Assembly: GCF_014652615.1 (NCBI RefSeq)
Contig: NZ_BMZD01000002.1
Span: 434,001 to 498,000 of the forward strand
Reading direction: 5' to 3'
Origin: Novosphingobium arvoryzae
GTDB lineage: Bacteria > Pseudomonadota > Alphaproteobacteria > Sphingomonadales > Sphingomonadaceae
Length of the DNA: 64,000 nt
Made by a program: the position numbers and the translations under genes. Every line of letters begins with the position of its first letter. The first letter of the stretch is position 1. Positions 53,105 to 63,687 of the stretch are shown here, in pieces. The notes beneath the pieces were generated by a model. The model was given only the letters and a program-made list of their open reading frames with translations, did no database searches and was not told where the DNA came from.

Positions 53105-54619
53105 ATGAACGACATGACCACGATCGATCGCACCCAGCGCGCCTATTCGGCCGCCGCGCAGGCGTTCCTGGCGCGCAAGCCGGCGCTGTTCATCAACAAC
53201 GAATGGGTATCCTCCAGCCACGACAAGACCATTCCGGTCGAAGACCCCTCCTCGGGCAAGATCGTCGGCCATGTGGTCGATGCCTCTGACAAGGACGTGG
53301 ACCGCGCCGTGGCCGCCGCGCGCGCCGCGTTCGACGATGGCCGCTGGTCGAACCTGCCGCCGATGGTGCGCGAACGCACGATGATCCGGCTGGCCGACCT
53401 GATCGAGGCCAACGCCGACGAGCTGGCCGAGCTGGAAGCCATCGACAACGGCAAGCCCAAGACCATGGCCGGCGCGGTTGACGTGCCGGGCGCCGCCGCG
53501 CACATCCGCTTCATGGCCGGCTGGGCCAGCAAGGTCAGCGGCGAAGTGACCACGCCCTACACCATGCCCGGCGGCACGGTGTTCGGATATACCACTAAGG
53601 AGCCGGTCGGCGTTTGCGCGCAGATCGTGCCGTGGAACTTCCCGCTGCTGATGGCCTGCCTGAAGATCGCCCCGGCACTAGCCGCAGGCTGCACCACCGT
53701 GCTGAAGCCGGCCGAACAGACCAGCCTGACCGCGCTGCGACTGGCCGACCTGATCGCCGAAGCGGGCTTCCCCGCGGGCGTCGTCAACATCATCACCGGC
53801 AACGGCCACACCGCCGGGGACCGCATGGTCAAGCACCCCGATGTCGACAAGGTGGCCTTCACCGGCTCGACCGAAATCGGCAAGCTGATCAACAAGAACG
53901 CCACCGACAGCCTGAAGCGCGTGACGCTGGAACTGGGCGGGAAATCGCCGGTGGTGATCATGCCCGACGTCGATGTTGCCACCGCCGCCCCCGGCGCGGC
54001 AGGGGCGATCTTCTTCAACTCCGGCCAGGTCTGCGTCGCCGGTTCGCGGCTCTATGCCCACCGCTCGATCTTCGACCAAGTGATCGAGGGCGTTGCCGCG
54101 ACCACCCCGTTCTGGGCTCCGCGCGCCAGCCTTGATCCCGAAGCGCACATGGGCCCGCTGGTGTCGAAGGAACAGTTCGACCGCGTGATGGGCTATATCG
54201 AGGCAGGCAAGCGCGACGGCGCCAGCGTGGCCGTGGGCGGCGATGCAGCTGCGGCCGACGGGGGCTATTACGTCAACCCGACCGTGCTGGTCGACGTGAA
54301 CCCGCAAATGAGCGTGGTGCGCGAGGAAATCTTCGGACCCGTCGTGGTCGCCCAGCGTTTTGACGATCTGGACGAAGTGGCCAAGTCCGCCAACGACACC
54401 TGCTTCGGCCTGGGCGCGGGCATCTGGACCAAGGACGTCGCGACAATGCACAAGCTGGCGTCCAAGATCAAATCCGGCACCGTGTGGGGCAACTGCCACG
54501 CCGTGATCGACACCGCGCTGCCGTTTGGCGGCTTCAAGGAATCTGGCCTCGGCCGCGAACAGGGCCGTCAGGGCATCGAAGCCTACATGGAAACCAAGAC
54601 GGTCATCATCCAGCTGTAA
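53105..54619 (+). CDS. NAD(P)-dependent aldehyde dehydrogenase
   Basis: The 504-residue enzyme has general base Glu276 in TLELGGKSP and the nucleophile Cys310 in NSGQVCVAGS, plus VPWNFPLLMA, KPAEQTSLTALRLA, GSTEIGK and EEIFGPVV. ATG 53105 has GAGAGAGGG before it. It oxidises an aldehyde to the acid; by context an aryl or aryl-acyl aldehyde (for example vanillin or vanilloyl acetaldehyde) is plausible but unproven. It heads a plus-strand run of six genes after a palindromic promoter, and a GC hairpin follows it. Confidence 0.9.
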   Translation: MNDMTTIDRTQRAYSAAAQAFLARKPALFINNEWVSSSHDKTIPVEDPSSGKIVGHVVDASDKDVDRAVAAARAAFDDGRWSNLPPMVRERTMIRLADLIEANADELAELEAIDNGKPKTMAGAVDVPGAAAHIRFMAGWASKVSGEVTTPYTMPGGTVFGYTTKEPVGVCAQIVPWNFPLLMACLKIAPALAAGCTTVLKPAEQTSLTALRLADLIAEAGFPAGVVNIITGNGHTAGDRMVKHPDVDKVAFTGSTEIGKLINKNATDSLKRVTLELGGKSPVVIMPDVDVATAAPGAAGAIFFNSGQVCVAGSRLYAHRSIFDQVIEGVAATTPFWAPRASLDPEAHMGPLVSKEQFDRVMGYIEAGKRDGASVAVGGDAAAADGGYYVNPTVLVDVNPQMSVVREEIFGPVVVAQRFDDLDEVAKSANDTCFGLGAGIWTKDVATMHKLASKIKSGTVWGNCHAVIDTALPFGGFKESGLGREQGRQGIEAYMETKTVIIQL

Positions 54620-54687: not shown

Positions 54688-55560
54688 GTGGCAATCGACC
54701 TGTCCAAGATCAAAGCCATCGACGTTCACGTCCATGCGGAAGTCAGCTGCCACGATCCCGAAGACCCGGTAATGGGCCAGTTCTTCGATGCCGCCAGCGC
54801 CTATTTCAAGGCGCCGCGCGAACGGCCCAAGATGCCGGAAATCGCGGAAATCTATCGCGAACAGCAGATCGCGTTCTGCATGTTCACGGTCGACTGCGAA
54901 AGCGGGATCGGGGCCAAGCGGGTATCGAACTACGAAGTGGCCGAATTCGCCGCGAAGAACGACGATATCTGCATCCCCTTCGCCTCGATCGACCCTCACA
55001 AGGGCAAGCTGGGCGCGCGCGAGGCCCGCGATCTGGTCGAAAACTGCGGCGTGAAGGGCTTCAAGTTCCACCACATCATGCAGAACATCGAACCCGCCGC
55101 GCAGGTCGGGTACGCGATTTACGAGGTGATCAACGAGTACAAGCTGCCCGCGATCTTCCACACCGGCCATTCCGGCATGGGCACGGGGATGCGCGGCGGC
55201 GGCGGGGTGCGACTGAAGTATGGCCAGCCGATGCTGGTGGACGACGTCGCGGTCGATTTCCCCGACATGAAGGTGATCCTCGCCCATCCCAGCTGGCCGT
55301 GGGTCGATGAAAGCCTGTCGATGGCGCTGCACAAGGACAACGTGTTCATCGACCTGTCGGGCTGGTCGCCGAAGTATTTCCAGCCGCAGATCATCCAGTA
55401 CGCCAACACCCAGCTGCGCAAAAAGATGCTGTTCGGCAGCGATTTCCCGCTGATCCACCCGCAAAAGTGGCTCGATGCGGCGCGGCAGGTGGGCTTCAAG
55501 GAAGAAGTCCTGCCCGGCATCATGAAGGACAACGCCGCGCGCCTGCTGGGTCTGGCCTGA
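54688..55560 (+). CDS. Amidohydrolase-2 family protein, possible aryl beta-ketoacyl-CoA hydrolase
   Basis: The 290-residue metal-dependent TIM-barrel protein shows HVHAEVS (HxH) near 13, GVKGFKFHH near 122, IFHTGHSGMG near 153, VILAHPSWPW near 197 and LFGSDFPLIHP near 250, the metal and catalytic positions of the ACMSD/amidohydrolase-2 group. The overall sequence, notably DLSGWSPKYFQPQIIQYAN, recalls proteins annotated as 4-hydroxyphenyl-beta-ketoacyl-CoA hydrolases, which cleave aryl beta-ketoacyl-CoA to aryl acid. The closely spaced genes and the CoA ligase fit that, but decarboxylation is an alternative. Confidence 0.75.
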   Translation: MAIDLSKIKAIDVHVHAEVSCHDPEDPVMGQFFDAASAYFKAPRERPKMPEIAEIYREQQIAFCMFTVDCESGIGAKRVSNYEVAEFAAKNDDICIPFASIDPHKGKLGAREARDLVENCGVKGFKFHHIMQNIEPAAQVGYAIYEVINEYKLPAIFHTGHSGMGTGMRGGGGVRLKYGQPMLVDDVAVDFPDMKVILAHPSWPWVDESLSMALHKDNVFIDLSGWSPKYFQPQIIQYANTQLRKKMLFGSDFPLIHPQKWLDAARQVGFKEEVLPGIMKDNAARLLGLA

Positions 55561-55570
55561 GGCCAGCAGC

Positions 55571-56317
55571 ATGGACTTCACCGGCCGCCATGTCGTCATT
55601 ACCGGCGCGTCCACCGGGATCGGGCGGGCAACGGCGGACCGGATCGCCGCGCTGGGCGGACGGGTCACGCTGATCGCCCGGCGGGCGGCGCTGCTGGAGG
55701 ACGCCTGCGCGCAGCTGGGCGCGTCTGCGCAATGGGCTGCCGCCGACGTGGGCGACAAGGCCCAACTGCTGGCCGCGCTGGACAGCGCCGCCGCGCAGAA
55801 CGGACCGATCGACGCGCTGTTCCTCAACGCGGGCACCGGCGGGGCCTTCGCGCCGGTGCAGGATTATGCCGACGCCGTGTTCGATGCCGTGCTGGCAGTG
55901 AACCTGAAATCGCCGTTCTGGGCCATCGCCCATGTCCTGCCCGGCATGGTGGAACGCGGGCGCGGCAGCATCCTCGTCACCGGCAGTCTGGCCTCTGAAC
56001 GCGGGATGGCGGGCAATGTCGGCTATGTCGCGTCGAAGCACGCGGTGCTGGGCCTGGCCCGCGCGGTCGCGCTGGAGGCGGCGCCGCATGGGGTGCGCTG
56101 CAATTGCATTGTCCCCGGCTTTATCGAGACGCCGATGCTGGACGCGCTGCCGCCCGATGCGCTGGCGACGATGGCCGCCGCCACGCCGCAGGGCCGCACC
56201 GGCAAGGCCGGGGAACTGGCTGACGTCGCGGCGTTCCTGCTTTCCGACGCGGCCAGCCATGTGACCGGGCAATCGCTCGCGGTCGATGGCGGAGTGCTGG
56301 GCACCTTGAGAATTTGA
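55571..56317 (+). CDS. Short-chain dehydrogenase/reductase
   Basis: The 248-residue SDR has the cofactor loop TGASTGIGRA near 11, the NAG motif FLNAGTGG near 87, the catalytic Ser in VTGSLAS and YxxxK in GYVASKH near 153, and PGFIETPM. It oxidises or reduces an alcohol/ketone with NAD(P). It starts 10 nt after the amidohydrolase. A role on the benzylic or side-chain alcohol of a lignin-derived compound is inferred from context. It is shorter than the LigD-type C-alpha dehydrogenases, so it is not an obvious LigD orthologue. Confidence 0.82.
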   Translation: MDFTGRHVVITGASTGIGRATADRIAALGGRVTLIARRAALLEDACAQLGASAQWAAADVGDKAQLLAALDSAAAQNGPIDALFLNAGTGGAFAPVQDYADAVFDAVLAVNLKSPFWAIAHVLPGMVERGRGSILVTGSLASERGMAGNVGYVASKHAVLGLARAVALEAAPHGVRCNCIVPGFIETPMLDALPPDALATMAAATPQGRTGKAGELADVAAFLLSDAASHVTGQSLAVDGGVLGTLRI

Positions 56318-56339: not shown

Positions 56340-57116
56340 ATGGGCCTGAAATACTACCACGCCGAGCCGCTGGCGAATTCGCTGAAATCGATGGTCCCGC
56401 TCAAGGAAAAGGGGCTGGCCTATGAATCGGTCTATGTCGACCTGCACAAGTTCGAGCAGCATTCCGCGTGGTTCACCGCGATCAATCCCGAAGGCCAGGT
56501 GCCGGTGCTGGACCATGACGGCACGATCATCACCCATACCACGGTGATCAACGAATACCTGGAAGACGCCTTCCCCGATGCCCAGCCCGCCGATGGCCCG
56601 CTGCGCCCGCGTGATCCTGTTGGCGCGGCGCGGATGCGGTACTGGAACAAGTTCGTTGACGAACACGTGATGAACTATGTCTCGATGCACGGCTGGCACC
56701 GCATGGTCGGCGTGATCGCGCGCAGCATCGACAGCGGCGAGTTCGAAAAGCTGCTGGAGAACATCCCCCTGCCCGACCAGCGCAAGAAGTGGGCAACCGC
56801 GCGCTCCGGCTTTTCGGATGCGGACCTGGCGAACGCGACCGCCAAGATCGAATATGCGTTGGGCAAGGTCGAGGCGCAGCTGGGCCAGACCCGGTGGCTG
56901 GCGGGCGATGCCTATACCCTCGCCGACATCAACTTTTACTCGCACTGCGGCATGATGGTGGAGCGGATGTTCCCCGAACTGGAGGTGGCCAAGCGCTGCC
57001 CGCGCCTGATCGACTGGCGGGATCGCGTCACCGCCCGCCCCGCCGTGGCCGAAGCGCTGAAAAGCGAAGACCGCACCGCGCCGGGCCTGCGGACCTGGTC
57101 GGGCGAGGTGCGCTGA
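56340..57116 (+). CDS. Glutathione S-transferase, LigF-like (beta-etherase group)
   Basis: The 258-residue GST begins MGLKYYHAEPLANSLK, with Asn13-Ser14 where LigF of Sphingobium SYK-6 has its ANS. The stretch KFEQHSAWFTAINPEGQ and the HDGTIITHTTVINEYLED region follow LigF closely as I recall it. LigF cleaves the beta-aryl ether of lignin dimer ketones with glutathione, giving a glutathionyl-phenylpropanone. The C-terminal domain is all-helical with LADINFYSHC near 200. It stands in an aromatic operon, so beta-ether cleavage or glutathione removal is the best guess; fumarylacetoacetate-type GST roles remain possible. Confidence 0.72.
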   Translation: MGLKYYHAEPLANSLKSMVPLKEKGLAYESVYVDLHKFEQHSAWFTAINPEGQVPVLDHDGTIITHTTVINEYLEDAFPDAQPADGPLRPRDPVGAARMRYWNKFVDEHVMNYVSMHGWHRMVGVIARSIDSGEFEKLLENIPLPDQRKKWATARSGFSDADLANATAKIEYALGKVEAQLGQTRWLAGDAYTLADINFYSHCGMMVERMFPELEVAKRCPRLIDWRDRVTARPAVAEALKSEDRTAPGLRTWSGEVR

Positions 57117-57123
57117 GGCGATC

Positions 57124-57864
57124 ATGGCTGGATTTGTCCTGATCCACGGCAGCTGGCACGGTGGGTGGTGCTTTGACGAAGTTGCCGCACGCTTGCGCGC
57201 CGCCGGTCACACCGTGGTTGCCCCGACCCTGCCCGGCATGGGCGGCAACGAGGCGCAGCTGCGCGCCGTCACCCTGCAAGGGTGGGGCGATTTCGCCGCC
57301 GCCCAGTGCCGCGAACTGAAGGCGCAGCTGGGCGGCGCGCCGGTCGTGCTGGGCGGCCATTCGCGCGGCGGGATCGTGGTCAGCACCGCCGCCGAGGCCG
57401 ATCCCGCGGCGATGGACGCGCTGGTCTATATCTGCGCAATGATGCTGCCCGATGGCATGAGCCGCGCCGAATTCAAGGCGCTGGAAGAACCCACCCCCGC
57501 ATTCGACGCGCTGATTTCCAAGGTCCATGACGGGGCCGGGACCGTGGTCGACCCCGCGCTGGCCGGGCCGGTCTTTGCCCAGCTCTCTCCGCCCGAACTG
57601 GTCGCCGCCGCACTGCCGCGCCTGCTGGCCGAGCCGCACGGCCCGCGCAGCGAGCCCTTGCGGCTGACGGCGGAACGTTGGGGCAGCCTGCCCCGCACTT
57701 ATGTCGAATGCACGCAGGACCGGACGATTCCTATCGCGAGCCAGCGGCTGATGCAGCAGATGTCCCCCGGCGCGCGCGTGGTCACGCTGGAGAGCGATCA
57801 TTCCCCCTACCTGTGCTGCCCACGGGCCTTGGCGGATGCGCTGATCGCTGCGATACCCGTCTGA
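57124..57864 (+). CDS. Alpha/beta hydrolase
   Basis: The 246-residue protein has FVLIHGSWHGGWCF for the oxyanion region near 4, the nucleophile elbow GGHSRGG near 78 and the final His in ESDHSPYL near 222. The oxyanion region resembles the hydroxynitrile lyase / salicylate esterase group. It probably hydrolyses an ester or thioester in the cytoplasm. It follows the GST gene by 7 nt. A second hydrolase of similar build begins at the right edge of the window. Confidence 0.82.
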   Translation: MAGFVLIHGSWHGGWCFDEVAARLRAAGHTVVAPTLPGMGGNEAQLRAVTLQGWGDFAAAQCRELKAQLGGAPVVLGGHSRGGIVVSTAAEADPAAMDALVYICAMMLPDGMSRAEFKALEEPTPAFDALISKVHDGAGTVVDPALAGPVFAQLSPPELVAAALPRLLAEPHGPRSEPLRLTAERWGSLPRTYVECTQDRTIPIASQRLMQQMSPGARVVTLESDHSPYLCCPRALADALIAAIPV

Positions 57865-57893: not shown

Positions 57894-58793
57894 ATGCGTG
57901 AAGTCCGTCTCAGCCCGTCTGGCGGCTTTGACAATGCGGCGCGCGATTACCGCCACATCACGGTCCAGCCAATTGCCGCCGCGATGGGCGCGGAGGTTGT
58001 CGGGGTGGCCCTGCGGGACTTGCCCGATGCCGGGCTGGCCGAATTGCAGGACGCGCTGTGGCGGCACAAGATGGTGTTCCTGCGCCACCAGCACCTGACC
58101 CATGCCGAGCATGAGGCCTTTGCCGCCCGCTGGGGAGCATTCGCGCCCGATGCCTATACCCACGGCGTTCCCGGCCATCCCCATGTCCAGCCGGTGATCA
58201 AGGAAGCCGATCATCGCAGCAAGGGCCTGTTCGGCAGCGGCTGGCACACGGATTCGCCGTTCCTGCCGGAACCGCCGGGCGTCACCATCCTGCGCTCGGT
58301 CCAGATCCCGCCCTATGGCGGCGATACCGTGTGGGCCAATTGCGCGCTGGCCTGGCGCATGCTCAGCCCGACGATGCAGACCATGCTCGCCCCGCTGAAA
58401 GTTCGGATGAGCGCGCGCAACAACGCCTTCACGCAGAAACTGGCCGACGGCAAGGAACTGTCCTTCGCCAGCGACGAAGCCCGCGAAGCCGCGTTCACGG
58501 GCACCGGGCATCCGCTGGTCCGCACCCATCCGGTCACCGGCGAACAGGCGCTGTTCGTGGACGAGGTCTATGCCGTGGGCATCGACGGGCTGACCAGCGC
58601 CGAGGCGCGCCCGCTGCTGGAATTCCTGATCCAGCACATCACCCAGCACCACTTCACCTGCCGCCTGCGCTGGGACGAAGGCATGGTGGCGATGTGGGAC
58701 AACCGCACCGCCCTGCACCTCGCCGCTAACGATTACGACGGCTATCGGCGCGAGATGTATCGCACCACACTGGCGGGGGAACGGCCGTCGTAA
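57894..58793 (+). CDS. TauD/TfdA-family 2-oxoglutarate dioxygenase
   Basis: The 299-residue Fe(II) enzyme starts at ATG 57894 behind GGGAGA. The facial triad is visible: His118-x-Asp120 in GWHTDSP and the distal His near 275 in TALHLAAND, with the 2-oxoglutarate Arg region RREMYRTTL after it. Members hydroxylate sulfonates, aryloxy acids and others, and some cleave aryl ethers (TfdA). In this neighbourhood an aromatic ether or side-chain substrate is conceivable, but nothing fixes it. It is the last gene of the run. Confidence 0.87.
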   Translation: MREVRLSPSGGFDNAARDYRHITVQPIAAAMGAEVVGVALRDLPDAGLAELQDALWRHKMVFLRHQHLTHAEHEAFAARWGAFAPDAYTHGVPGHPHVQPVIKEADHRSKGLFGSGWHTDSPFLPEPPGVTILRSVQIPPYGGDTVWANCALAWRMLSPTMQTMLAPLKVRMSARNNAFTQKLADGKELSFASDEAREAAFTGTGHPLVRTHPVTGEQALFVDEVYAVGIDGLTSAEARPLLEFLIQHITQHHFTCRLRWDEGMVAMWDNRTALHLAANDYDGYRREMYRTTLAGERPS

Positions 58794-60323: not shown

Positions 60324-61178
60324 TCAGCTGCGGAACACCACCGTCTTGTCCTTGTTCAGCAGGACGCGGTCGTCGAGATGCAGGCGCACCGCTTCAGCCA
60401 GCACGCGGCGTTCGATGTCACGGCCCTTGCGGACAAGGTCGTCCGGACGGTCGGCGTGGCTGATCGCTTCGACGTCCTGGTGGATGATCGGCCCTTCATC
60501 GAGGTCTGCCGTCACATAGTGCGCCGTCGCGCCGATCATCTTCACCCCGCGCGCATGGGCCTGGTGATAGGGCTTCGCGCCCTTGAAGCCCGGCAGGAAG
60601 CTGTGGTGGATGTTGATGCAGCGGCCCGAGAGGAACGCGGCCAGATCGTCCGACAGGATCTGCATGTAGCGCGCCAGCACGACCAGTTCGGCCCCGGTGT
60701 CGGTGACCACCTGCTTGATCTGCGCTTCCTGCTGCGGCTTGGTGTCTTTGGTGATCGGGAAGTGATAATAGGGCACGTCCCCCAGCAGCGAGATCGACAG
60801 CGCTTCCTTGGGATGGTTGCCGATGATGGCGACCACGTCCATGTTCAGCTCACCGATGCGGTTGCGATAGAGCAGGTCGCCCAGGCAGTGGTCGAACTTG
60901 CTGACCATCAGCACCACCTTGCGCGGGGTATCCTTGCCCCGCAGGTTCCAGGTCATGCCGTATTCCGTGGCCAGCGGTTCGAACCCGGCGCGAATCGCGC
61001 CCATGTCCGCGCTGCCCGGATCGAACGCCACGCGCATGAAGAAGTGGCCGCTGTCCTGATCGTTGAACTGCTGCGCCTCCAGAATATTTCCTCCGTTTTC
61101 AAACAGATAACCGGTAACGCGCGCGGTGATCCCGGCACGGTCGCAGCAGGACAGGGTGAGGATCTGGACCTCGGCCAT
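60324..61178 (-). CDS. purU: Formyltetrahydrofolate deformylase
   Basis: The 284-residue enzyme splits 10-formyl-tetrahydrofolate to formate and tetrahydrofolate. An N-terminal ACT domain ([19 protein letters not shown]) is followed by the formyltransferase-like domain: [31 protein letters not shown] and [17 protein letters not shown] with the final Asp/His pair. ATG 61178 follows GGGAGA, better than the upstream ATG at 61193. It is divergent from ligM with a shared palindrome, so it probably restores free folate after O-demethylation. Confidence 0.94.
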
Positions 61179-61227
61179 CAGCAAGTCTCCCATTGTGGCG
61201 CAGCGCCATAGCCGCTCCGCTTTTCGT

Positions 61228-61273
61228 TTGCACCGATAGCAAAATATAGTATGCAGTGCATACAAAATTGCAA
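61228..61273. promoter_or_regulatory. Divergent purU/ligM promoter with perfect palindrome
   Basis: GTATGCA-G-TGCATAC (61249-61263) is a perfect palindrome. For ligM, TTGCAC (61228-61233) and TATGCA (61250-61255) are 16 nt apart. For purU on the minus strand, TTGCAA (61268-61273) and TACTAT (61246-61251) are 16 nt apart. One bound repressor would cover both. AAAATTGCA also repeats at 61264 and 61279. Confidence 0.6.
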
Positions 61274-61329
61274 ACGGCAAAATTGCACACCGCAATGCGC
61301 CAACCGGATTTCAACTGGAGAGGGAGTAG

Positions 61330-62736
<1,407 letters not shown>

Positions 62737-62811
62737 GGCCAATCAGGCCGGGCAGCCCGCGGCGCCGCAATGGCGCGCGGGCTGCCGCTGGCTTTTCAAG
62801 AGGAAGCACTG

Positions 62812-63687
62812 ATGGCGAAACCGCTGATTCACCCCAACTGGGACAAGGCCCCCGCCGGAATCACCGACGGCTTCAGCCTGGAAATGACCGCCAAGGACAT
62901 CGAATCGCTGCGCGAGGCCGCGCCGCTGATTCCGGCCGACACCCCCGTCGCCGTCACGTTCCTGCCCGGCGAAGAAGCCGAAGCCCGCATCGCCGCCACG
63001 GTCGCCGTGCGCGAACTGGGGTTTGAACCGATGCCGCACTTCTCCGCGCGGCGCATCACCTCCGAAGACGATTTCGAGGGTTACCTGAAAGCCGTGGTCG
63101 AACGCGCGGGGGTGACCCGCTGCTTCATCGTCGCGGGCGACCCGCCGGAACCGCAGGGCCCCTATTTCGACACCTCCGCCCTGATCGCGACTGGCGCGTT
63201 CGAGCGCGCGGGCATCAAGGCCATCGGCGTTGGTGGCCACCCCGAAGGGCATCCCAACATGACCGAGCAGCAATGCTGGTACGTGCTGGAAAGCAAGGTC
63301 CGCGCGATCGAATCGCGCGGCATGGCGCCGCTGGTGGTCACCCAGTTCGGGTTCGATCCCGATGCCTTCCTCACCTGGCTGAAGCAGCTGCGCATGCGCG
63401 GGCTGGACGTGCCGGTGCGGATCGGGGTGCCCGGCCCCGCCAGCATCAAGGCCCTGCTGCGCTTTGCCGCGCGCTGCGGCGTGGGCGCATCGGCCAGCGT
63501 GATGAAGAAATACGGCATCTCGCTCACCAACCTGATCGGCAGCGCCGGACCGGACAAGCTGGTCGACGCGTTCGCGCGCGGGCTGTCGGGCGAACACGGC
63601 CGGGTGCGGCTGCACTTCTATCCCTTCGGCGGCATGGTGAAGACCGTGGAATGGATCGCCGCCTATAACCGGAAGCACGGCCTTTGA
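62812..63687 (+). CDS. metF: Methylenetetrahydrofolate reductase
   Basis: The 291-residue enzyme starts at ATG 62812 with AAGAGGAAG before it. MetF-type TIM barrel marks: FSLEMTAKDIESLREA, PHFSARRITSEDDFEGYL, FIVAGDPPEPQGP, VGGHPEGHPNM and FGFDPDAFLTWL. It is the diverged MetF form found beside ligM in sphingomonads. It probably runs in the oxidising direction, turning the 5-methyl-folate made by LigM into methylene-folate. It overlaps the next gene by 4 nt (TTGA). Confidence 0.88.
   Translation: MAKPLIHPNWDKAPAGITDGFSLEMTAKDIESLREAAPLIPADTPVAVTFLPGEEAEARIAATVAVRELGFEPMPHFSARRITSEDDFEGYLKAVVERAGVTRCFIVAGDPPEPQGPYFDTSALIATGAFERAGIKAIGVGGHPEGHPNMTEQQCWYVLESKVRAIESRGMAPLVVTQFGFDPDAFLTWLKQLRMRGLDVPVRIGVPGPASIKALLRFAARCGVGASASVMKKYGISLTNLIGSAGPDKLVDAFARGLSGEHGRVRLHFYPFGGMVKTVEWIAAYNRKHGL

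Follow-up and report, generated by a model that had tools for sequence, protein, structure and literature searches.

We analyzed 64,000 nucleotides of contig C2 in the 3.29-Mb genome of Novosphingobium arvoryzae; coordinates without a contig label refer to this stretch, hereafter the window. An open reading frame at 56340–57116 on the forward strand encodes a glutathione S-transferase (GST) of 258 amino acids, which we call P0001. It starts with ATG, has no internal stop codons, and is preceded by a good ribosome-binding site (AAGGGA). The gene lies in a tight forward-strand run that encodes an aldehyde dehydrogenase, an amidohydrolase, an SDR oxidoreductase, the GST, an alpha/beta hydrolase, and a TauD-type dioxygenase, with successive gaps of ~68, 10, 22, 7, and 29 bp.

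The aldehyde dehydrogenase (53105–54619; PF00171, 9.8e-170) is of the StyD/phenylacetaldehyde type, with 619.7 bits against NF045735, below the cut-off of 850. The amidohydrolase (54688–55560; PF04909, 3.2e-40) is the best conserved upstream neighbor of the GST gene; it is 80–96% identical in most relatives’ clusters and also occurs where desD is absent, and no solved relative gives an indication of its function. The SDR oxidoreductase (55571–56317; PF13561, 5.9e-54) is encoded immediately upstream of the GST. The alpha/beta hydrolase encoded next (57124–57864; Abhydrolase_6, 1.9e-28) is an orthologue of DesC and a predicted esterase for CHMOD, the methyl ester of a hydroxymuconate tricarboxylate; its nearest solved structures are of the esterase/hydroxynitrile-lyase type. 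Then follows a TauD/TfdA-type 2-oxoglutarate dioxygenase (57894–58793, with a chosen start codon), assigned from PF02668 (2.4e-58) and synteny.

Beyond the dioxygenase gene, a glyoxalase-like gene and purU lie on the reverse strand. The purU product (60324–61295; TIGR00655, 323 bits, cut-off 286; syntenic) is a formyltetrahydrofolate deformylase with a role in C1 disposal. On the forward strand, these genes are followed by ligM (61336–62736; NF047885, 891 bits, cut-off 580), which encodes an H4folate-dependent vanillate/3-O-methylgallate O-demethylase, and by a metF-like gene for 5,10-methylenetetrahydrofolate reductase (62770–63687; TIGR00676, 2.7e-11, below its cut-off). The original prediction had named the amidohydrolase, the SDR, and the hydrolase as neighbors of the GST, as found here; it had overlooked ligM, the metF-like gene, and purU, which close the cluster.

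Sequence and predicted structure of the glutathione S-transferase

Pfam identified P0001 as a two-domain GST (GST_N, 8e-16; GST_C_2, 2.4e-9). Among proteins of solved structure, its top match by sequence was LigF (PDB 4XT0; E 8.6e-55 over P0001 residues 1–240), and the second-best match had an E-value of 3.2e-16. The same LigF structure was nearest in fold to the predicted structure of P0001 (pLDDT 91; TMt 0.94), with the following ranks at ~0.8–0.85. P0001 has 44% aa identity to LigF of strain SYK-6 and 45% to LigF1 of its own genome. The four motifs on which the original prediction had based its description of a LigF-like GST (ANSLK, KFEQHSAWF, INPEGQVPVL, and TVINEYLED) are all found in P0001 and all match LigF, and the open reading frame is a genuine gene for a LigF-related GST. 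Against the maiA profile, P0001 scored 54.7 bits, under the cut-off of 171; it was absent from a LigE search of its own genome at E 1e-40; and its best relative in a plasmid collection was 48.6% identical, with no close relative there.

Orthology to DesD of N. aromaticivorans

P0001 aligned over its full length of 258 aa with 91% identity to the product of a colinear gene in N. aromaticivorans (genome G102). The colinear neighbors include ligM (95% identity), desC (74%), the SDR gene (74%), the amidohydrolase gene (95%), the aldehyde dehydrogenase gene (87%), and the metF-like gene (83%). The N. aromaticivorans DSM 12444 locus was picked by the start of the published cloning primer for ligM (Saro_2861), which has one exact match among 196 genus genomes. 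In that genome, the 91% identical gene is four places from ligM and flanked by the 74% identical desC, with the genes for BaeB and BaeA ~8 kb further, as the tag numbers require; the matches to ligE and to a desA-like gene of the LigM family are side by side, as tags Saro_2404/Saro_2405 require. The primer match and gene order, rather than a name, strongly indicate that the gene is Saro_2865 (WP_052241956.1). The two loci share the order of desC, SDR, amidohydrolase, aldehyde dehydrogenase, purU, ligM, and metF. They differ in that the window has a TauD-like gene between desC and ligM, and in that the genes for BaeAB and a CoA ligase are ~8 kb from desD in N. aromaticivorans but on contig C6 in N. 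arvoryzae.

Two LigF subclades have been described in N. aromaticivorans, NaLigF1 (Saro_2091) and NaLigF2 (Saro_2865); Saro_2865 shares one cluster with BaeAB (Saro_2872/2873), and NaLigF2 is among the LigF homologues that cleave beta(S) substrates in vitro (PMC6369299). Elsewhere, Saro_2864 is desC and Saro_2865 is desD (PMC12997858, PMC12642969). NaLigF2, which cleaves aromatic dimers with glutathione, is the identical gene product to DesD of DesCD (PMC8612281), in which DesC is assigned demethylation and DesD cis-trans isomerization (PMC6888825). PMC8612281 reports that purified DesCD yields 4-oxalomesaconate (OMA), and that inactivation of desD abolishes growth on syringate and leads to accumulation of CHMOD. 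Papers disagree on the strength of this phenotype: PMC12314914 predicts that DesC forms 4-carboxy-2-hydroxymuconate (CHMA) and that DesD isomerizes CHMA, but counts desD as non-essential for syringic acid catabolism. The window GST is an orthologue of a characterized protein in a conserved setting, rather than a new kind of lignin etherase.

Phylogeny and active-site residues

A maximum-likelihood tree of 83 proteins placed P0001 with Saro_2865 in one LigF2/DesD group, and supported branches split this group from the side that holds LigF1, BaeA, and BaeB; LigG and LigE were long branches whose placement is not meaningful. P0001 did not group with LigF1, and it was outside the clades of BaeA and BaeB, whose genes are both on C6. 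The original prediction had proposed a position among non-etherase GSTs as evidence against ether cleavage, and here the tree gives a mixed answer, as P0001 is related to LigF1 yet separate from it.

We compared 53 DesD sequences with 21 LigF1 sequences and identified 28 clade-specific positions, defined as fixed differently at ≥85%. Asn13 and Ser14, at the glutathione thiol site, are invariant in all sequences of both sets, and His41, Gln53, Val54, Gln147, and Trp151 (P0001 numbering) are common to both clades; glutathione binding and positioning of the thiol are therefore retained. Gln40 is also among the conserved residues of the glutathione site. The residues of LigF that contact the gamma-glutamyl group of glutathione, Glu66-Ser67, are His66-Thr67 in P0001 and His/Gln-Thr in all DesD sequences. 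From LigF to the DesD clade, Phe8 is replaced by Ala, Phe107 by Val, Trp109 by Asn, and Ile114 by His in nearly all 53 sequences. Judged from sequence, fewer aromatic and more polar residues would be a better match for a small tricarboxylate than for an aryl ether dimer.

P0001 resembles LigF (SLG_08650, from Sphingobium sp. SYK-6) and LigF1 (Saro_2091) in its fold, in Asn13/Ser14, and in most glutathione contacts, whereas it differs from them in overall sequence (42–45% identity), in belonging to its own clade, in having His-Thr for Glu66-Ser67, and in the replaced aromatic positions. The heterodimeric beta(R)-etherase BaeA/BaeB likewise consists of distant LigF-like GSTs, encoded in the same island in many genomes; however, P0001 has 37% identity to BaeA and 32% to BaeB, which form separate clades and are encoded elsewhere in the N. 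arvoryzae genome.

Conservation of the gene neighborhood

Within the 196 genus genomes, 60 carry DesD, at 62 loci (≥67% identity, two partial matches included). DesC is encoded downstream on the same strand at 52 of these loci, usually within 100 bp. At nine of the remaining ten loci, ligM is 144–323 bp downstream; the tenth is the second of two copies on contig C34 of G127, which is just 72% identical. BaeA is encoded within 12 kb of DesD at 22–23 of the 62 loci, a count that contig ends limit. Across the 60 genomes, DesD co-occurs with DesC in 52, LigM in 54, LigE in 50, and BaeA in 42. Because LigE correlates with DesD about as strongly as DesC does, presence/absence profiles cannot separate an etherase role from an isomerase role; synteny could do so. 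Relatives in Erythrobacteraceae, Sphingobium, Hyphomonadaceae, and further groups keep the order aldehyde dehydrogenase, amidohydrolase, (SDR), DesD, (DesC or TauD), ligM.

Eight genus genomes have desD and lack desC, and in 12 of 14 checked desD-bearing genomes without an adjacent desC, no desC was found anywhere; DesD is therefore not strictly tied to DesC. In desC-less Erythrobacteraceae clusters (L075, L080, L084, L086, L088, L091, L092, L094, and L109), a gene for a TauD-type dioxygenase directly follows desD, and this enzyme might be a replacement for the esterase. Genome G081 has two DesD copies (C21 and C7); desC accompanies one of them, and the other is immediately upstream of ligM. 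In G135 (C1:1548299–1549026), desC is read in two overlapping frames and is possibly frameshifted, and desD is intact.

Related genes elsewhere in the genome

LigF1 of N. arvoryzae is encoded on contig C3. The genes for BaeA and BaeB are adjacent on C6, and LigE (65% identity to SYK-6 LigE) is encoded ~7 kb from them at C6:42274–43065. A LigG search gave no good match in the genome, the best being 32% over 114 residues. Genes of the syringate pathway are present, namely a putative desA (a second LigM-family gene at C3:382841), ligA (two genes, one at C6:77178), and ligM.

As had been proposed, the window GST is related to LigF and is not encoded in a ligDFEG cluster. The lack of LigE and LigG in the window, observed at the same time, is uninformative, since the genes for LigE, LigF1, and BaeAB are on other contigs. 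We also rejected an isolated etherase in a strain without the rest of the system, given LigF1, LigE, and BaeAB elsewhere in the genome. The island is split in N. arvoryzae, with BaeAB, the CoA ligase, and LigE together on C6 (L129); in many relatives (L124–L128), BaeAB are encoded 7–9 kb from desD.

Proposed function and alternatives

The window GST has orthology to DesD, synteny with its cluster, a conserved glutathione site, and altered substrate-side residues. Its gene is probably desD (synonym ligF2) of a Novosphingobium syringate/vanillate cluster, with DesC and then DesD leading to OMA and with ether cleavage as a secondary activity. In this pathway, DesA takes one methyl group off syringate to give 3-O-methylgallate, and LigAB opens the ring of the latter to give CHMOD. 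DesC would then remove the methyl ester of CHMOD, and the window GST would isomerize the DesC product to OMA with glutathione as a catalyst; we infer this order of DesC and DesD for N. arvoryzae. Glutathione in the LigF-type site, its thiol held by Asn13/Ser14, may add to the conjugated diene acid, after which a single bond would rotate and glutathione would leave unchanged. This sequence of addition, rotation, and elimination is proposed by analogy with the maleylacetoacetate and maleylpyruvate isomerases. These zeta-class enzymes have the GST fold and catalyze the glutathione-dependent cis-trans isomerization of an unsaturated acid; they are not close to P0001 in sequence, and the likeness would be one of mechanism only. 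The same thiolate can also cleave ethers of the beta(S)-aryl type, an activity reported for the orthologue that we take to be secondary. Isomerization of CHMOD/CHMA to OMA by the window GST is the best explanation of the sequence data, and PMC8612281 reports it for the orthologue together with DesC. The counterpoints to an isomerase are the in vitro beta-etherase activity of the orthologue and the frequent presence of BaeAB in the wider cluster.

It is possible, albeit rather unlikely, that CHMA itself is the substrate of DesD, which would act independently of DesC as a glutathione-dependent cis-trans isomerase. The desC-less desD loci would fit an enzyme acting on CHMA, supplied either by the DesC route or by the opening of the gallate ring. 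If true, such an activity would explain why, in some lineages, desD is kept directly upstream of ligM after loss of desC, as well as the TauD-type dioxygenase in the place of desC in several Erythrobacteraceae, possibly an oxidative substitute for the esterase. DesD would then be a LigF-type etherase scaffold turned muconate isomerase.

We consider it improbable that the window GST genuinely combines two functions, each of physiological weight, and links the breakdown of dimers to that of syringyl monomers. The orthologue has been reported to have each activity (PMC8612281), and the gene is in a lignin island with BaeAB 7–9 kb away in some genomes; however, LigF1, LigE, and BaeAB encoded elsewhere in the genome already account for the two beta stereoisomers, and the literature examined holds no mutant data that point to a dimer defect when desD alone is lost.

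Still less probable is an in vivo LigF-type beta(S)-etherase, in which beta(S)-MPHPV would lose its aryloxy group through SN2 attack by glutathione, with a role in syringate catabolism that is secondary or specific to N. aromaticivorans. The conserved Asn13/Ser14, Gln40, His41, Gln53, Val54, Gln147, and Trp151 and the nearest fold, that of LigF, are consistent with such an enzyme, and cleavage of beta(S)-MPHPV by NaLigF2 in vitro (PMC6369299, PMC8612281) bears out the original suggestion of an ether-cleaving enzyme as far as activity is concerned. As the main role, ether cleavage is disfavored: the genome has its own LigF1, the residues at positions 8, 107, 109, and 114 are swapped in the DesD clade, gene order tracks desC and ligM, and Saro_2865 does not appear in a table of responses to GGE (PMC5892560), although it was perhaps simply unmeasured there. 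Stereospecificity is not predictable from sequence alone, as BaeAB shows, a beta(R)-specific enzyme among the relatives of LigF (PMC6369299); even so, a beta-etherase of unusual stereospecificity (e.g., beta(R) like BaeAB), as originally proposed, is hardly credible, since the 91% identical orthologue is listed with the usual beta(S)-cleaving LigF homologues and BaeA and BaeB form separate clades with both genes on another contig; LigE and LigF1 are likewise encoded elsewhere in the genome.

With the window gene read as desD, a misleading annotation is settled, in that LigF-like GSTs encoded beside desC and ligM would be counted as DesD, and not as extra beta-etherases, in genome-based estimates of lignin degradation. 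The 53 DesD and 21 LigF sequences with their 28 clade-specific positions also provide a comparison set for one GST scaffold that would serve both ether cleavage and muconate isomerization.

Further LigF-like GSTs were observed in two other genomes. Contig C82 of G122 (L145:6231–8510) has a tandem of three LigF/BaeA-like GST genes, with identities of 53% to BaeA, 32% to LigF1, and 49–50% to P0001; the last of the three is on a long branch near DesD. SYK-6 has a LigF-like GST (L137:7870–8616; chromosome ~755.9–756.6 kb) with 41% identity to P0001, encoded beside an SDR and a TauD and not named an etherase in the literature examined.

The amidohydrolase and aldehyde dehydrogenase genes of the window are more widely conserved in the lignin island than desD. 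Homologues of VceA/VceB are missing in N. aromaticivorans (PMC11837543). The CoA ligase gene on C6 (L129:7046–8533) adjoins those for BaeAB, and this ligase, together with a beta-ketoacyl-CoA hydrolase of the CouO/HpeF type (perhaps the amidohydrolase), would fill the step from vanilloyl-acetate to vanillate.
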